Source: Nitrospirota bacterium (GTDB lineage: Bacteria > Nitrospirota > Leptospirillia > Leptospirillales > Leptospirillaceae). From it: a stretch of DNA of 64,000 nucleotides. This document shows, piece by piece, positions 50,476 through 58,092 of this stretch. The position numbers and the translations under genes are program-made. Position 1 is the stretch's first letter. Every line of letters begins with the position of its first letter. The notes below the pieces were generated by a model that was given only the letters and a program-made list of their open reading frames with translations, made no database searches and was not told where the DNA came from. The stretch covers positions 1-64,000 of the forward strand of contig DAHVAL010000003.1 in assembly GCA_027314645.1 (NCBI GenBank), written 5' to 3'.

Positions 50476-53400
50476 CTATTGGAAGGAACTGGAGCGGGCT
50501 CTGGCCCGTCGAATTTCCGAGGGCTCTCCTTCGGGGTTGATCAAAGGAAGCTGTCCCGTCATGGAGTAGACGACGGGAAGGACAAGCAGGGTGAAGACGA
50601 TCGTGGTCAGAACGCCTCCCACAATCACGATGGCGAGCGGTTTTTGGGCCTGATTTCCGATCCCTGCCGACAACGCGGCCGGTAGGAGGCCAAGGCCCGC
50701 AAGGAGGGCGGTCATCAACACCGGTCTGACGCGAAGATTCCCCCCCTGGATCAGGGCCTCCCGCATCGAGAGCCCTTCCCGTCTGAGGTTTGTCACGAAA
50801 TTGATCAAAATCATTCCATCCTGGATGGCGATCCCGAAGAGCGAGAGAAACCCTAACGCCGCCGAAATGCTCAGGTGGTGTCCCGTCATGAGAAGAGCCC
50901 ATACCCCACCGGTGATCGCAACCGGGACGCTCAGGATCTGGACGAGGGCGTATTTGATCGACCGATAGGCCCAATAGAGAAGGAGGAAGATCAGGCCGAC
51001 CGCGAGCGGGACCAGAAGGGCCAGCCTGTGCTGGGCCTCTTTCATTTCCTTATATTCTCCGTACCATCGGATTCTGTATCCGGGGGGGAGATGAAGCCGG
51101 TTTGCGATTTCTCGCTTCGCCGCATCGACTGAGGACCCGATATCCCGCCCCCGTATGGAGAACTTGACCGGGATGTACCGGGAGTTGGACTCCCGGAAGA
51201 TATAGGAGTTTCCGATCTTGAGAGAGATGTGGGCAAGCTGCGATAAGGGAATGTGCGACCCGTCCGGGCTGTCCACCGGAATCCCCTTGATCGCCTCGAT
51301 ATCCTTCCTGTAGGGACGGGCAAGCCGGACCGTCACATCAAACCGTTTTTCGTTCTTCAGAACCTGGGTGACCGCCACCCCGCCAACCGCCGCCTGAATG
51401 ACCCCTTCGACATCGGCCACATGGATCCCGTACCGGGCGCAGGCGAGGGCATCCACTTGGATATCGAGTTCGGGACCTCCCCGAATTCTGAAGAGTCCCA
51501 AATCATGGAATCCTGGGATTCCTCCCAGAAGTCCGATCGCCCGGTGTGCAAGACCCTCGAGGACAACGGGATCGGGACCATAGATCTTCAGGCTGTTCTG
51601 CCCTTTGACCCCCGATACCGCCTCTTCCACGTTATCCTCGATGTACTGGGAAATGTTGAAGGTCACCCCCGGAATCGTCTTAAGGCGCCCCATCACCTCC
51701 GTCTCGATCCGGGTTTTTGATATTCCTTTTCTCCATTGGTTATGGGGTTTGAAGAAAACTGCAAATTCCGCATTCCAGAATCCGCCGACGTCATAGGCGT
51801 CATCGGGGCGTCCTTCCTCCGAGACCACGGTTTTCACCTCGGGAACCGCCAGAATCTCTCTCCGGATTCCATCGGTGACCCGTGCACCATAGTCAAGACT
51901 GATCGCCGCGGGATAGGTCGCCCGGATATAAAGATTGTTTTCTTCAAGCTTCGGAAGAAACTCCGACCCCAATCGGGGCAGGGCGAACCCCACCGTCAGG
52001 ACAAGAAAGATGAATGCGGCCGACAACACAAGACGCGGACGGTCGAGAACAAAGAGGAGGACGGCGTCGTATCCTTTTTTGACCACCCTCATCAGGGGTG
52101 TGTCGGGGTGGAACCCCACATTTTTGAGAAGGACCGAAGAAAATGCCGGAGAGAGAGTCATGGAGAGGATGACCGCGGCTAAAAGACCTCCCCCCATGGT
52201 GTAGGCCATGGGCACGAAGATTTTCCCTTCGATGCCGCTCATGAACAGAAGAGGAACATAGGCGCCGAACACGATCAAGGTGGAAAACACCGTGGCCGAC
52301 TGGACCTCGGTGACGGCATTGTAGACCACCACGAAGATGGACGGTCGGTCGGATCCTACAGTCCCTCCGGTCAGATGGCGGTAAATATTTTCCACCACGA
52401 TCACGGACGCGTCGACCAAAATGCCGAAGTCGATGGCTCCCAGCGACAGGAGATTGGCCGACACGCCATGAACCTTCATGATGGAGAAGGCAGTTAACAG
52501 CGCCACGGGAATCGTGACGGCGACGATGATGGCTGACCGGAGGTTTCCAAGGAAGAGGTAAAGGGTGAGAAAGACCAGGCCGATCCCCATCGAGAGATTT
52601 TCAAGAACGGTGTGAAGGGTCCAGCTCATCAGCTGGGTCCGGTCGTAAAACGGCAGGAGATGGACCCCGGGAGGAAGGTCATGCGCCCGGATCTCGGCGA
52701 CTTTCTCATGAATCCTCTTCATGACGTGGCGGGTGTTCGCTCCGCGAAGAAGGAGGACCACCCCTTCCACCGTATCGTTTTCAAGATTTCTCCCCACCCT
52801 TCCCAGGCGGGGCTGGGGGCCGATCTGGATTGACGCGATATAGCGAAGAAGGATGGGGGTCCCCTTGACCTCTCCGACCATGATATTGCCGATATCTTCC
52901 CGATTCTTGAGGAGCCCCAGACCCCGGACGACCGCGGCCGTTTCGCCGAAGGTCATCACGTAGGCGCCGACATTGTTGTTGGCCGCCGAAACCGATGAAA
53001 GCACCTGGGAGAGCGGAATATTGAAATTTCTTAACTTGGCCAAGTCGACCAGAATCTGGTATTGGCGGATCCACCCGCCCATCCCGGACTCGTCGGCCAC
53101 CCCCGGTATCTCCTTGAAACGGCGTTCGAGGACCCAGTCGTCCAGGGTTTTGAGCTGATCGAGCGGGGCTCCGGTGAGGGTGTAGCGGAACACCTCCCCT
53201 GTGGCGGGGGTGTTGATATCGAGAACGGGGGTGACTCCCGCCGGGAGATTGGCCTGGGAAATGCGGTTGAAGATCCTGTGGCGGGCCTCGAAATCATCGA
53301 CTCCATCTTTAAAAACGGCGATCACGACCGAGAGCCCGTACATCGAGATGGACCTCTGGGTCTTCATCCCGGGAGTCCCATTGATCGCGATTTCAACCGG

Positions 53401-53598
53401 AAGCGTGATCTGCCGCTCGACCTCTTCGGCCCCCCGCCCGGCCCATTGGGTCAGGACGCGCACCTCGAGCGGAGAGACGTCGGGATAGGGTTCTATCTGA
53501 AGATTTTCATAGGAAAAGATGCCGACCACGGAAAGGGACAGGGCGACCAAAAAGACGATCACCCGCTCCCGGATCGCGAAAGCCACGAGGTGTTTCAC
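50476..53598 (-). CDS. Heavy-metal RND efflux pump, CzcA/CusA family
   Basis: YPDVSPLEVRVLTQWAGRGAEEVERQITLPVEIAINGTPGM; TM4 GAIDFGILVDASVIVVEN. Confidence 0.93.
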   Translation of the reverse strand: MKHLVAFAIRERVIVFLVALSLSVVGIFSYENLQIEPYPDVSPLEVRVLTQWAGRGAEEVERQITLPVEIAINGTPGMKTQRSISMYGLSVVIAVFKDGVDDFEARHRIFNRISQANLPAGVTPVLDINTPATGEVFRYTLTGAPLDQLKTLDDWVLERRFKEIPGVADESGMGGWIRQYQILVDLAKLRNFNIPLSQVLSSVSAANNNVGAYVMTFGETAAVVRGLGLLKNREDIGNIMVGEVKGTPILLRYIASIQIGPQPRLGRVGRNLENDTVEGVVLLLRGANTRHVMKRIHEKVAEIRAHDLPPGVHLLPFYDRTQLMSWTLHTVLENLSMGIGLVFLTLYLFLGNLRSAIIVAVTIPVALLTAFSIMKVHGVSANLLSLGAIDFGILVDASVIVVENIYRHLTGGTVGSDRPSIFVVVYNAVTEVQSATVFSTLIVFGAYVPLLFMSGIEGKIFVPMAYTMGGGLLAAVILSMTLSPAFSSVLLKNVGFHPDTPLMRVVKKGYDAVLLFVLDRPRLVLSAAFIFLVLTVGFALPRLGSEFLPKLEENNLYIRATYPAAISLDYGARVTDGIRREILAVPEVKTVVSEEGRPDDAYDVGGFWNAEFAVFFKPHNQWRKGISKTRIETEVMGRLKTIPGVTFNISQYIEDNVEEAVSGVKGQNSLKIYGPDPVVLEGLAHRAIGLLGGIPGFHDLGLFRIRGGPELDIQVDALACARYGIHVADVEGVIQAAVGGVAVTQVLKNEKRFDVTVRLARPYRKDIEAIKGIPVDSPDGSHIPLSQLAHISLKIGNSYIFRESNSRYIPVKFSIRGRDIGSSVDAAKREIANRLHLPPGYRIRWYGEYKEMKEAQHRLALLVPLAVGLIFLLLYWAYRSIKYALVQILSVPVAITGGVWALLMTGHHLSISAALGFLSLFGIAIQDGMILINFVTNLRREGLSMREALIQGGNLRVRPVLMTALLAGLGLLPAALSAGIGNQAQKPLAIVIVGGVLTTIVFTLLVLPVVYSMTGQLPLINPEGEPSEIRRARARSSSFQ

Positions 53599-54725
53599 GG
53601 ATGAGGCCTCCCGATCCGGCCGAAGGGGGAGGGAGTTCCCGTGGCTTGACTCAGATTGGTCTCCCGGATGCCTTCAAGAAGGAGGGCGCCCTTCACGGCC
53701 ACTTTCTCTCCCGGAACAAGGCCCGATTCGATGCGGACCCATCCCTGCTCTTCCCGCCCCGGCTCAACCTCCCGCGGCACGAAGACACCGGAGGACTGCT
53801 CGACGAACACATGGTACCCATGTTCGTCCCTTAAGAGGGCCCCTTCCGAAACGGCCACCACCGGCCGGGGTATCGAAAGCCTGATGCGGACCGTCGCAAA
53901 CATTCCCGGTTTCAGCAGCCGGTCCGGATTGGGGATTTCGGCTCTCACATGGAAGGTGCGGGTATTGGGGTCCACCATGCCCCCCAAATAGACGATTTTT
54001 CCCGAAAAGACTTTGCCGGGATAGGCGACGGCTTCAACGGAGACCATCTGTCCGGTCCGAACAAGGGGAAAGTCCCTTTCATAGATGTCCATATAGACGA
54101 GAAGACTTGAGATGTCGGCGATGGTCATAAGCTGGTCGCCAGGATTCATGAACAGTCCGGCCCGAAGGGAGGAGGTCAGGATCACCCCGGCCCTGGGGGC
54201 ATGAAGGGTCAGATACCGGGACACGTGCTTCGTGTTGGAAATTGCGTCGATATCGGCCTGGGATGCCCCCATGAGGCGAAGCTTCCTATCGGCGGCCATG
54301 ATGTAGCCTCCGCTTTCGGCCCGGTTCGAGAGGGTGCTGGCCACCTTGTACGCGTTCAACAGCTCCACCTCGGCGGTGGTGTAGTCGGGGCTATAGACAT
54401 AGGCCAGGGGGGCGTCCTTATGGACCTTTTGGCCTTCGAAGGCCAGGACTCTGACCTCCCGTCCCGCCACCCGGGCAGACACGATCGAGACCTTTTCCTC
54501 GTCGAAGTTGAGCGTTCCGGTGCGATGGAGTTCGATCTCCATCTCCTTCTTTTCGACAGGAACGGCCTCGACCCATCCGGACCTCTGCTGCTCTGGGGTC
54601 AGTCGGACGCTGAGATCGGCCGGTTCGGCCGACACGGCATCGCGGCTCCCATGCCACGAGGGTCCCCAGATAAGACCTCCCGCCAGGAGAGCGATCCCCG
54701 CACCCGCCATTACAACCTTCCGCAT
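53595..54725 (-). CDS. Efflux RND periplasmic adaptor subunit (CusB/CzcB family)
   Basis: RTGTLNFDEEKVSIVSARVAGREVRVLAFEGQKVHKDAPLAYVYSPD; APRAGVIL; overlaps the RND gene. Confidence 0.9.
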   Translation of the reverse strand: MRKVVMAGAGIALLAGGLIWGPSWHGSRDAVSAEPADLSVRLTPEQQRSGWVEAVPVEKKEMEIELHRTGTLNFDEEKVSIVSARVAGREVRVLAFEGQKVHKDAPLAYVYSPDYTTAEVELLNAYKVASTLSNRAESGGYIMAADRKLRLMGASQADIDAISNTKHVSRYLTLHAPRAGVILTSSLRAGLFMNPGDQLMTIADISSLLVYMDIYERDFPLVRTGQMVSVEAVAYPGKVFSGKIVYLGGMVDPNTRTFHVRAEIPNPDRLLKPGMFATVRIRLSIPRPVVAVSEGALLRDEHGYHVFVEQSSGVFVPREVEPGREEQGWVRIESGLVPGEKVAVKGALLLEGIRETNLSQATGTPSPFGRIGRPHP

Positions 54726-54816: not shown

Positions 54817-56277
54817 CTAGGGAAGCGGAGATCCAACGGCGGCCTCGAGATTGCTCAGGGCCTGATAGTAAGCGATCAGGCTCTGATACCGGTTGTACTG
54901 GGCCTGGCGATAGGCCTGAACGGCATTGATCAGGTAGAGAAAATCATTTTTCTGATTCTCATACCCCGTAAGGGCGAGTTCGAAGGCCAGCCGGGACTGG
55001 GGGAGAATGTTGTCGACATTCATCCGAAATTGCTGGTAGGCGAGCTCAACCTGAGCATAAAGCGTATCCACTGCCAAACGGACCTGGGCCGACTGCCACT
55101 GGTACTGCCAGTCGGCGGCCCGGAGCATTTCCTTCTGGGAGCGATACTGAAGGTTCTGTTTGATCGGGGCAAATATCGGGACATTGATCTGGACGCCCAC
55201 GTACCAGCAGTTGATCCCGGAAAATCCGTAGCAGGACTCCCCGCCTTCCGATCCGGTCAATTGGTAGTCCGGAAAGAAGCCGAGCTTCGCGAGCGTCAGC
55301 TGGTGACGGTTTAAATCCACCGTCGCGCGGGCCGACAGGAGGTCGGGGCGATTTTCAATGGCCCGGCCTTCGAGATCCGCCATGGAATAATGGAGCAGAG
55401 TCGGATCCGGAAGCCGTTCGACCGTGGTCGACCGTTTCATGGAAAATCCGAGCAGCATGTTGAGCTGTTTTCTGGCCACCGCGATCTGGTATTTCACATT
55501 GAGGCGATCGAGCTGCGCCTGGGACAGGGCCACCCGTGCATTCACCACATCGAGGATCTGAACCGATCCGACGGACAATTTGGCCTTGGTGATCTCCAGC
55601 ACCCGCAGGAGCCAGGTCCGAAGCTGGTCGTTTAAGCGGAGATTCTCTCCCGACAGGAGAAGCTGGTAGCAGGCCAGCTCGGTCTGATTGCGAAGCTGTA
55701 CACGCTGAACCCGATACCCCTCGAAGGCGATCCGGGTGTTGTCTTTGTTGATTCTGAACCCGGCCTGCGCTTTCCCGGGGAAGAGAAAGGACTGGACGAT
55801 CGCCCAGTTGTTCCCGCTCTCATAAGGAAGGCCGATGTTTTGCAGCCCCTGGAAGCTGCTTCCATTGGCCAGGACGCTCTGGGCGGTCCCCTGTTCGCCG
55901 CCGCCGTACTCCCATTGGAGCAGGGGATCGGCCGGAGCGAAGGCCGTCGGCTCAAGCTCCTTCGTTCCACTCCAGATTTTTTGATAGGAGAGAATATTGG
56001 GGTTCTTTTCGAGGGCGATCCGGACGGCCTGCGCGACCGTCAACGGCGGCTCCCCGATCTCCTCAGGGGATTTCGTGGAACCTCCGGCCTCCTTGGGGCT
56101 TGAAAGCCCCGTCTTTCCCTGGGGATCCGGCGCCGCCCCCACCCATGAATCGGTCCAGACAAAAAAACCCACTCCCACCATGGCCCAGAGTATCCCGCGG
56201 ACCATCCGCCTTCTGGTCCCTCCATCGTTCACCACAGTCGGCTCCAATATATGAGACATTGTATCAAATTGAGACAT
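54817..56277 (-). CDS. TolC-family outer-membrane efflux protein (CzcC/CusC type)
   Basis: LTVAQAVRIALEKNPNI; NRPDLLSARATVDLNRHQLTLAKLGFFPDYQL. Confidence 0.9.
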   Translation of the reverse strand: MSQFDTMSHILEPTVVNDGGTRRRMVRGILWAMVGVGFFVWTDSWVGAAPDPQGKTGLSSPKEAGGSTKSPEEIGEPPLTVAQAVRIALEKNPNILSYQKIWSGTKELEPTAFAPADPLLQWEYGGGEQGTAQSVLANGSSFQGLQNIGLPYESGNNWAIVQSFLFPGKAQAGFRINKDNTRIAFEGYRVQRVQLRNQTELACYQLLLSGENLRLNDQLRTWLLRVLEITKAKLSVGSVQILDVVNARVALSQAQLDRLNVKYQIAVARKQLNMLLGFSMKRSTTVERLPDPTLLHYSMADLEGRAIENRPDLLSARATVDLNRHQLTLAKLGFFPDYQLTGSEGGESCYGFSGINCWYVGVQINVPIFAPIKQNLQYRSQKEMLRAADWQYQWQSAQVRLAVDTLYAQVELAYQQFRMNVDNILPQSRLAFELALTGYENQKNDFLYLINAVQAYRQAQYNRYQSLIAYYQALSNLEAAVGSPLP

Positions 56278-56316: not shown

Positions 56317-56949
56317 TCAGATCACATTTCCCATCCGCTTCGAATAGTACGCCACGGCAATCCCCAGGACCCCGAGATCGTCAAGAAATCCGAAGAAGGG
56401 AATGTGGTCAGGAATGAAATCGAGGGGAGTCAACAGGTAAAATAATGCACCGTAGGCCACGACCTTATCGGGGGAGGCCAGCTTTTTCGATCGGATGACC
56501 TTCCACAGGAAAGAGATCCGGTCGGACCATTCCTCTCCCAGGTTTTTGAACCAAAGAACCCGGTCTGAATGCCCTTCGACCTCGGCCTGCTTTTCCGTTT
56601 GCTGCCCGATCTGGGCAAGCCCCGTCAGAATCTGATCCTCCGAACCTGAAGGGGCTAGGGCGAACCCCTGACGAAGCCCGAGATTTTTGAGTGCGACGTG
56701 GTACTCCCCCGGCGGCGCCTCGGAAAGGAGCATGCGAACGACCGGACCTTCGGGGTCCAGACGTCCTTCTGCGGCCATCTCGAGGCAGGCATCCCGGATC
56801 GCCGGCACATAGACCTTCGGGACTTTCGTCCCGCCGGGCTTCTTCAGCCATCTCCGCAAGGTCATACCCGAGACGCCGATCCGCTTTCCCAATTCTTCCG
56901 GAGAGCAAGAAGACTCTTCCAGAATTGTTAACATTTGTGAATTATCCAT
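56317..56949 (-). CDS. HTH-domain protein with C-terminal DUF1232 (YkvA-like)
   Basis: SPEELGKRIGVSGMTLRRWLKKPGG HTH; VVAYGALFYLLTPLDFIPDHIPFFGFLDDLGVLGIAVAYY DUF1232. Confidence 0.85.
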   Translation of the reverse strand: MDNSQMLTILEESSCSPEELGKRIGVSGMTLRRWLKKPGGTKVPKVYVPAIRDACLEMAAEGRLDPEGPVVRMLLSEAPPGEYHVALKNLGLRQGFALAPSGSEDQILTGLAQIGQQTEKQAEVEGHSDRVLWFKNLGEEWSDRISFLWKVIRSKKLASPDKVVAYGALFYLLTPLDFIPDHIPFFGFLDDLGVLGIAVAYYSKRMGNVI

Positions 56950-56963
56950 TCACAAATGTTAAC
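56927..56963. repeat. Perfect inverted repeat 16+5+16 (putative operator)
   Basis: GTTAACATTTGTGAAT-TATCC-ATTCACAAATGTTAAC; overlaps the start codon of the HTH-DUF1232 gene. Confidence 0.95.
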
Positions 56964-57129
56964 ATCAATGTCACCAGGGTTCAACCGATTCATTTTACCT
57001 CAATATGCGAACGGCATCCACAGGATTCATGGGACTCCCGAAAGGTGAAGAAAAGATCAGGACCGGCAGAACGCCAACGGAAGGCTTTAAAAGAGATCGG
57101 ACTTTTCCAAAACACCCAATCCTCGTATA

Positions 57130-58092
57130 ATGGAAATGAATATCCCTATCGTCACATGCTTTTCTTTCACCTCCGTCACTCACATGCCATGGGAGGCTTC
57201 ATTGGCCGAGGACTTCGAACCCGAACGCTACCTCGATTCCATTTCCGAATCTCCCGACAGCCGGGCCCACCCCTTGACGGAATCCCCCGAGGACCTTCGG
57301 GGGCTGCGTCGCCTTTCACGGATTGTGGACCATCTGAGAGGGGAAAACGGGTGTCCCTTCGATCGAAAGCAAACATTGGCCGCCCTCGTTTCCGATCTCA
57401 AGGACGAAATCTATGAACTCGAAGAGTCGGTCGAAAAGGAGGACCATGTCAACATTGCCCGAGAAATGGGCGACCTTTTCGTCATTCTTTTCATGGCACG
57501 GCGGATTCTCTGGGAGCACTCGGGGGAATCGCTTGGGGCCATCATGAGTCGCGCGTCGCTCAAGATGGTCTCTCGCCATCCTCATGTGTTCGAAGCCCCC
57601 ACCCCCGGCAAATCGCTGGCCGCCATTTGGGAAACCTGGGAGGAGAAGAAAAGGAAGGAGCCGGGACACAGGGATCGGGAGTCGGTGCTGGACGGGATTC
57701 CACAGACGATGCCTTCCTTGGCCGCTGCATCGAAGCTTGGGCAAAAAGCCGGGAGGGTGGGATTCGACTGGACGACCGCCGACGCGGTGGTGGAAAAAAT
57801 CTTCGAGGAGTGGGACGAAGTCCAGAGAGCCCGCAAGGAAGGCATCGACCGTCTCTCGGAAGAGATCGGAGATCTTCTCTTTGTCTTGGCTCAATTTGCA
57901 CGGCTCTCGGGCATCAGACCGGAAGAGGCCCTTCATCGCGCCAATCGGAAATTCCGGGATCGATTTCATGTGATGGAGCAGGAAGCGGAGTCCCAAGGCC
58001 TTCCCCTCGCTTCCCTCACCCCCGACCAATGGGAGGGGCTTTGGCAGGAATCGAAGAAGCGGCTCTCGAACATTAAGGATCAGCGTGCATGA
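57130..58092 (+). CDS. mazG: Nucleoside triphosphate pyrophosphohydrolase MazG
   Basis: ENGCPFDRKQTLAALVSDLKDEIYELEESVEKED...EMGDLFVILFMARRI; second MazG repeat EEWDEVQ..EEIGDLLFVLAQFARL. Start uncertain. Confidence 0.93.
   Translation: MEMNIPIVTCFSFTSVTHMPWEASLAEDFEPERYLDSISESPDSRAHPLTESPEDLRGLRRLSRIVDHLRGENGCPFDRKQTLAALVSDLKDEIYELEESVEKEDHVNIAREMGDLFVILFMARRILWEHSGESLGAIMSRASLKMVSRHPHVFEAPTPGKSLAAIWETWEEKKRKEPGHRDRESVLDGIPQTMPSLAAASKLGQKAGRVGFDWTTADAVVEKIFEEWDEVQRARKEGIDRLSEEIGDLLFVLAQFARLSGIRPEEALHRANRKFRDRFHVMEQEAESQGLPLASLTPDQWEGLWQESKKRLSNIKDQRA

Follow-up and report, generated by a model that had tools for sequence, protein, structure and literature searches.

The locus and its inverted repeat

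The window, meaning the whole 64,000-nucleotide stretch of Leptospirillaceae DNA that was analysed, carries on its minus strand a gene (56317..56949) for a 210-aa protein of HTH-X-DUF1232 architecture, a predicted autorepressor. The next gene downstream on the same strand, across a gap of 39 bp, encodes an outer-membrane efflux protein of the OEP/TolC-like type (54817..56277; PF02321, 148 bits, cutoff 22), followed by a CusB/CzcB-like RND periplasmic adaptor (53595..54725; TIGR01730, 143 bits, cutoff 94.9) and a heavy-metal efflux RND transporter of the CusA/CzcA family (50476..53598). The transporter scores 864.6 bits against a TIGR00914 cutoff of 701.45, which, together with the adaptor and the OEP, confirms an HME-RND operon behind the regulator. 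A separate palindromic element, GAKAC-NNN-GTMTC (56253..56275, strandless), lies at the OEP start and also precedes OEP genes at L077-L086; it marks the beginning of the Leptospirillaceae OEP gene with or without the TTMACA box described below, and is probably the site of another regulator.

The start of the regulator gene is embedded in a long inverted repeat (56926..56964, strandless). An inverted-repeat search of the window gave two arms of 17 nt (56926-56942 and 56948-56964) that are 100% complementary and separated by a 5-nt spacer. The preliminary description had reported a flawless dyad with 16-bp arms, so that the repeat itself stands and its arm length is corrected to 17 bp; its placement of the ATG at the junction of spacer and arm is borne out by the start codon at 56949..56947. 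Perfect inverted repeats with 17-bp arms and a loop no longer than 30 occur nowhere else in the 64 kb, and first-order shuffles yielded only 0.2 repeats with arms of even 12 bp.

Each arm is in itself a complete 14-bp quasi-palindrome, TTMACA-NN-TGTKAA, a feature absent from the earlier account, as were the efflux operon behind the gene and the boxes found in trans. The upstream box, TTAACATTTGTGAA (56949..56962, minus strand), spans gene positions -13 to +1 and contains the predicted -10 hexamer, and its register is kept in other phyla. The downstream box, TTCACAAATGTTAA (56928..56941, minus strand), covers +9 to +22, that is, codons 3-8, and shows a synonymous freeze. The two centres are 21 bp apart, equal to two helical turns. 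Placement of the box is nearly exclusive: a pattern search of the 2.04-Mb source genome, the whole-genome scan that had been proposed as a check, found three exact sites, namely the two boxes here and one at the start codon of a paralogous gene, while the reversed pattern used as control gave 0 matches. The two regulator copies of this genome differ in type. The window copy is operon-linked and closest to that of another genus (69%), and the second, G000:C67 (L019), is a solo paralog of the genus type, 55% identical to the window copy.

The regulator protein

The C-terminal part of the protein is a DUF1232 domain (PF06803, residues 162-195; 47.6 bits, Pfam cutoff 23), which is matched by 16/16 members of alignment A1. 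The N-terminal HTH named in the preliminary description holds as a predicted helical domain of the XRE/lambda-repressor-like kind, but not as an above-cutoff Pfam match. For the window protein alone, no XRE/Cro-CI HTH profile exceeded its Pfam gathering score, the best sub-cutoff matches being CENP-B_N (17.3 bits, cutoff 21.2) and Xre-like-HTH (16.3 bits, cutoff 25.8); the latter is found at E below 0.1 in 14 of 16 relatives. AlphaFold2 predicts helices at residues 3-13, 17-24, 28-36 and 45-60 with pLDDT of about 80-90, forming a helical HTH domain (residues 3-60) whose Foldseek shape matches include P22 c2, the 434 repressor and Aca1, the last bound to a 14-bp palindrome. These matches are weak, none having E below 0.001. 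Structure searches returned no significant whole-protein relative and no related solved structure, and no family in the NCBIfam search matched the regulator.

The DUF1232 part has four invariant aspartates in the alignment (D177, D181, D190 and D191) and two moderately hydrophobic stretches, with a maximum 19-residue Kyte-Doolittle value of 1.56. Such features would suit a membrane-associated sensor, and the hydropathy of DUF1232, taken by itself, suggests that the regulator may be membrane-tethered. The domain shares the P-x-D-x-IPD...P..G..DD signature of YkvA/DUF1232 proteins, those on plasmids and in other genomes resembling the regulator only in this C-terminal part. In the searched literature, DUF1232 appears only in plant RING-finger surveys, with no function assigned.

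Two other identities for the protein were considered and rejected. A phage or plasmid repressor is contradicted by viral contigs and plasmids, which hold no full-length relative; PHROGs matches are limited to DUF1232 or, weakly, to the HTH. The Xre antitoxin of a toxin-antitoxin module is likewise set aside, as no small toxin gene is adjacent and the neighbours are OEP/HlyD/RND or unrelated genes.

Conservation of the boxes and codon freeze

A survey of 20 other genomes of Leptospirillaceae found an ortholog in 14/20, and all orthologs of the family, the window gene included, have a box at the gene start (15/15). The one at L007, although shortened by a contig end, still has the downstream box, and at L002 the exact box is the upstream one. 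Most genus orthologs have a degenerate upstream box, with 3-5 mismatches, which means that two strong boxes are not obligatory. Among genomes of the same phylum outside Leptospirillaceae, the box was found in 1/8.

The downstream box has left a clear mark on codon usage. Where two orthologs share a residue, they use the same codon in 99% of cases in codons 3-7 versus 48% elsewhere; 0/157 windows were as high, and no other stretch of the gene exceeded 69%. Codon 7 is TTA in 14/15 genes, and TTA otherwise accounts for only 4/340 Leu codons. An operator lying within codons 3-8 would be a clear example from nature of codon choice imposed by a regulatory site.

Whether orthologs keep the dyad close to their start codons had been named as a deciding point in the preliminary description, and the outcome is positive: a box lies at the start in 15/15 genes of the family and at one of the same two registers in 12/27 members from other phyla, in addition to the codon freeze. 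A chance repeat or mobile-element remnant could draw on nothing beyond the perfection of the repeat in this single copy, and has a vanishingly small probability. The dyad is conserved, in register, codon-frozen and not dispersed; this reading was rejected on the size of the repeat, far beyond the shuffled expectation, and on the conservation that already contradicts it.

Promoter and predicted leaderless start

A sigma-70 promoter fits the sequence immediately upstream of the gene, with the layout TTGAAC-17-TAACAT-6-ATG. The predicted -35 (TTGAAC, 56979..56984, minus strand) stands 17 nt before the predicted -10 (TAACAT, 56956..56961, minus strand), which ends 6 nt before the ATG, so that the predicted +1 is the A of the ATG. 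The window -35 is weaker than those of its orthologs, which are mostly TTGACA or similar. The arrangement TTGAnn-17/18-TAnnnT-6-ATG recurs in 15/15 Leptospirillaceae promoters, and all of them have a box at +8 or -13. TAnnnT at exactly -12 was found in all 15 of these (mean 0.04 per other offset) and in 15/27 members outside the family (mean 0.5 at other offsets). A simple promoter scanner favours TTGATG-16-GATAAT in the window, with a start at codon 6; that promoter is not conserved. On the conserved geometry, the regulator mRNA is predicted to be leaderless and to start at the A of the ATG.

This prediction bears directly on the alternative raised in the preliminary description, namely that the dyad acts in the mRNA as a hairpin that hides the site of translation initiation. 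Such a hairpin would have 17 bp and span the start codon, and an RNA covering both arms does fold into it strongly when modelled (-40.7 kcal/mol, z = -6.9). With +1 predicted at the ATG by a promoter geometry conserved across phyla, however, the upstream box would remain untranscribed and the hairpin reading loses its basis; the structure of the predicted leaderless RNA is ordinary (z = 0.36). In most genus orthologs, moreover, the upstream arm has degenerated and no longer complements the other, individual boxes being retained; further boxes precede pump operons at places with no start codon close by. The hairpin was rejected on the predicted leaderless start and the loss of complementarity, and is very unlikely. 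Control of the divergent mazG gene was also rejected: a separate TATAAT-type promoter serves this gene near 57104-57131, some 140 bp away from the dyad.

Spread beyond Leptospirillaceae

Scanning 84,980 species genomes recovered 29 loci with the full-length HTH-DUF1232 protein, in Leptospirillum-type Nitrospirota, Rhodanobacteraceae and other Pseudomonadota, the candidate division FCPU426, Bdellovibrionota, Elusimicrobiota and Omnitrophota. Its presence is sporadic, with about a dozen full-length copies among 340 Bdellovibrionota genomes, 3/295 genomes in the Elusimicrobiota search and 2/249 in the family of the SZAS-104 proteobacterium. Among 27 members outside Leptospirillaceae, the box lies at offset -13 in 9 and at +8 in 7, which together make 12 genes; the other 15/27 lack a box at these fixed registers, some having one nearby. 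Examples of the box include TTAACATTTGTGAATG in L049 and L067 and TTCACATTTGTTAA in L070 and L073.

One divergent Bdellovibrionota clade (30-34% identity) has the box shifted to intergenic positions, including one before a PLD-like gene, and 7 nearby sites were counted there versus 0.38 expected. At three Bdellovibrionota loci (L128, L129 and L134), the box stands between the regulator and a divergent gene for a small secreted protein with an HGHGS motif; for the L128 protein, Pfam gives no match.

Pump-linked members are clustered in the tree without forming one clade, and Pseudomonadota members stand beside Leptospirillum ones, a pattern consistent with horizontal transfer. Another possibility is that a different regulator binds the box and that the HTH-DUF1232 gene is only one of its targets. 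Some targets, such as a LuxR-type gene in G005, are unlinked to the HTH-DUF1232 gene, as such a regulator would have it. Against this, the box travels with the HTH-DUF1232 gene into several phyla, it is almost absent elsewhere in the genome, and its rarity in the rest of the phylum (the 1/8 given above) points the same way. A different regulator is therefore quite unlikely.

Efflux operons and boxes in trans

Linkage of the regulator to efflux genes extends well beyond the window. OEP and/or HlyD plus RND genes lie directly downstream in the window and at L003, L047, L048, L049, L058, L059, L064, L065, L066, L067 and L068, and an OEP gene follows the regulator in L063 and L125. This association was found in other Leptospirillaceae genera, Rhodanobacteraceae, other Pseudomonadota, FCPU426, Bdellovibrionota and Elusimicrobiota; among the RND proteins tested, that of L064 is under the TIGR00914 cutoff (616.7) and that of L067 is interrupted by a contig end.

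Boxes also occur in trans, in the intergenic region between mazG and OEP, where they are exact in G002, G008 and G011 and have one mismatch in G009. In each of these four genomes, the box follows a TTGACA-17/18-TAnnnT promoter by a few bases before the OEP gene, and either the regulator is a solo gene or none was recovered. An Rfam search behind the trans boxes gave no known RNA element. At L067, a pair of boxes, TTAACATTTGTGAA-7-TTACCAAATGTTAA, precedes the OEP gene with the 21-bp spacing seen in the window. At L089 (genome G019), the regulator gene is apparently decayed, and the OEP gene is still preceded by both boxes, their centres 21 bp apart. One exact box, at position 1501 of L043 (G005), closely precedes the gene of a LuxR-type regulator that has no connection with the pump.

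A narrower interpretation holds that the dyad is an autoregulatory operator only, the link to the pump being mere gene order or horizontal co-transfer. Many genus genomes have the regulator as a solo gene, followed by one for a TPR lipoprotein, and in five (G001, G003, G005, G010 and G013) the pump operon has no box, whether exact or with one mismatch, for which reason pump control is not universal. The trans boxes before the pump operon in four genomes, and the box pair of identical spacing before the L067 pump, argue for a functional connection and leave autoregulation without pump control unlikely, though with an appreciable share of the probability.

Proposed model and comparison with known systems

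The dyad is best read as the operator of an HTH-DUF1232 autorepressor that would control both itself and a heavy-metal-type efflux operon, a reading to which a probability of roughly 0.78 is given. The autoregulatory operator already proposed in the preliminary description gains support at the level of sequence from a conserved palindrome that lies over the gene's own promoter, in register and with synonymous freeze. We infer that the HTH domain, probably as two dimers, would bind both boxes on the same helix face, one box covering the -10 element and +1 and the other +9 to +22 in codons 3-8. Bound boxes would block RNA polymerase and repress the regulator's own leaderless transcript. The OEP-HlyD-CusA/CzcA operon, presumably co-transcribed with the regulator, would be repressed in cis in the window, in other genera and in other phyla, and elsewhere, as in several Leptospirillum-type genomes, repression would act via the box before the pump operon. 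The C-terminal DUF1232 part is presumed to be the signal input, perhaps at the membrane, with repression lasting until a putative inducing signal releases the regulator.

On the sequence evidence, the repeat most likely represents the conserved operator of a hitherto undescribed family of HTH-DUF1232 regulators linked to efflux operons of the CusA/CzcA type. A broader proposal is more tentative and falls somewhat short of even odds: HTH-X-DUF1232 proteins may be undescribed, horizontally spread, one-component envelope-associated regulators, in which DUF1232 would provide a membrane or metal-sensing input and a conserved, leaderless double-operator switch would control CusA/CzcA-type efflux in several phyla.

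Metal efflux is known to be controlled by CusRS, CzcRS and CueR, which are two-component or MerR-type regulators, CusRS and CzcRS governing CusA/CzcA-type tripartite pumps. Unlike these, the window regulator has no profile match to two-component or MerR types. Its predicted helical HTH domain, with weak structural matches, is like those of lambda CI, P22 c2 and XRE-type repressors, and paired operators on one helix face have a known parallel among lambda CI-type repressors. DUF1232, however, replaces the dimerisation and cleavage domain of CI, the gene is not in a phage, and the regulator has no solved or Pfam-scored relative. A leaderless cI message is also known (cited in PMC3017554).

Among described systems, AcuR of Rhodobacter sphaeroides comes closest, a TetR-family acrylate sensor that represses the leaderless acuR-acuI-dddL operon it heads (PMC3017554). 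The transcript of that operon starts at the AUG, and the inverted-repeat operator, TAATAGAC-n6-GTCTATTA, overlaps the promoter, with conservation in diverse taxa (PMC3017554). A self-repressing first gene, a leaderless operon and an operator over the promoter would be common to both systems, these being predicted here. AcuR belongs to the TetR family, so that any likeness would lie in mechanism and not in family. The window system differs in its XRE-like HTH with DUF1232, in its operator, in the second box within the coding region and in the metal-type efflux operon.

DUF1232 is widespread, and one branch of it gains a concrete role that can be tested: it would regulate by binding DNA, its 14-bp operator and its targets are defined, and its conserved promoter architecture predicts leaderless expression. 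In Leptospirillum-type bacteria of acid mines, and in several phyla that have been little studied, the protein is a candidate regulator of heavy-metal-type efflux. The RND pump of the window (50476-53598) carries the motif DFGILVDASVIVVEN, versus DFG...DGA in the L065 and L066 pumps, and its substrate may differ from theirs.
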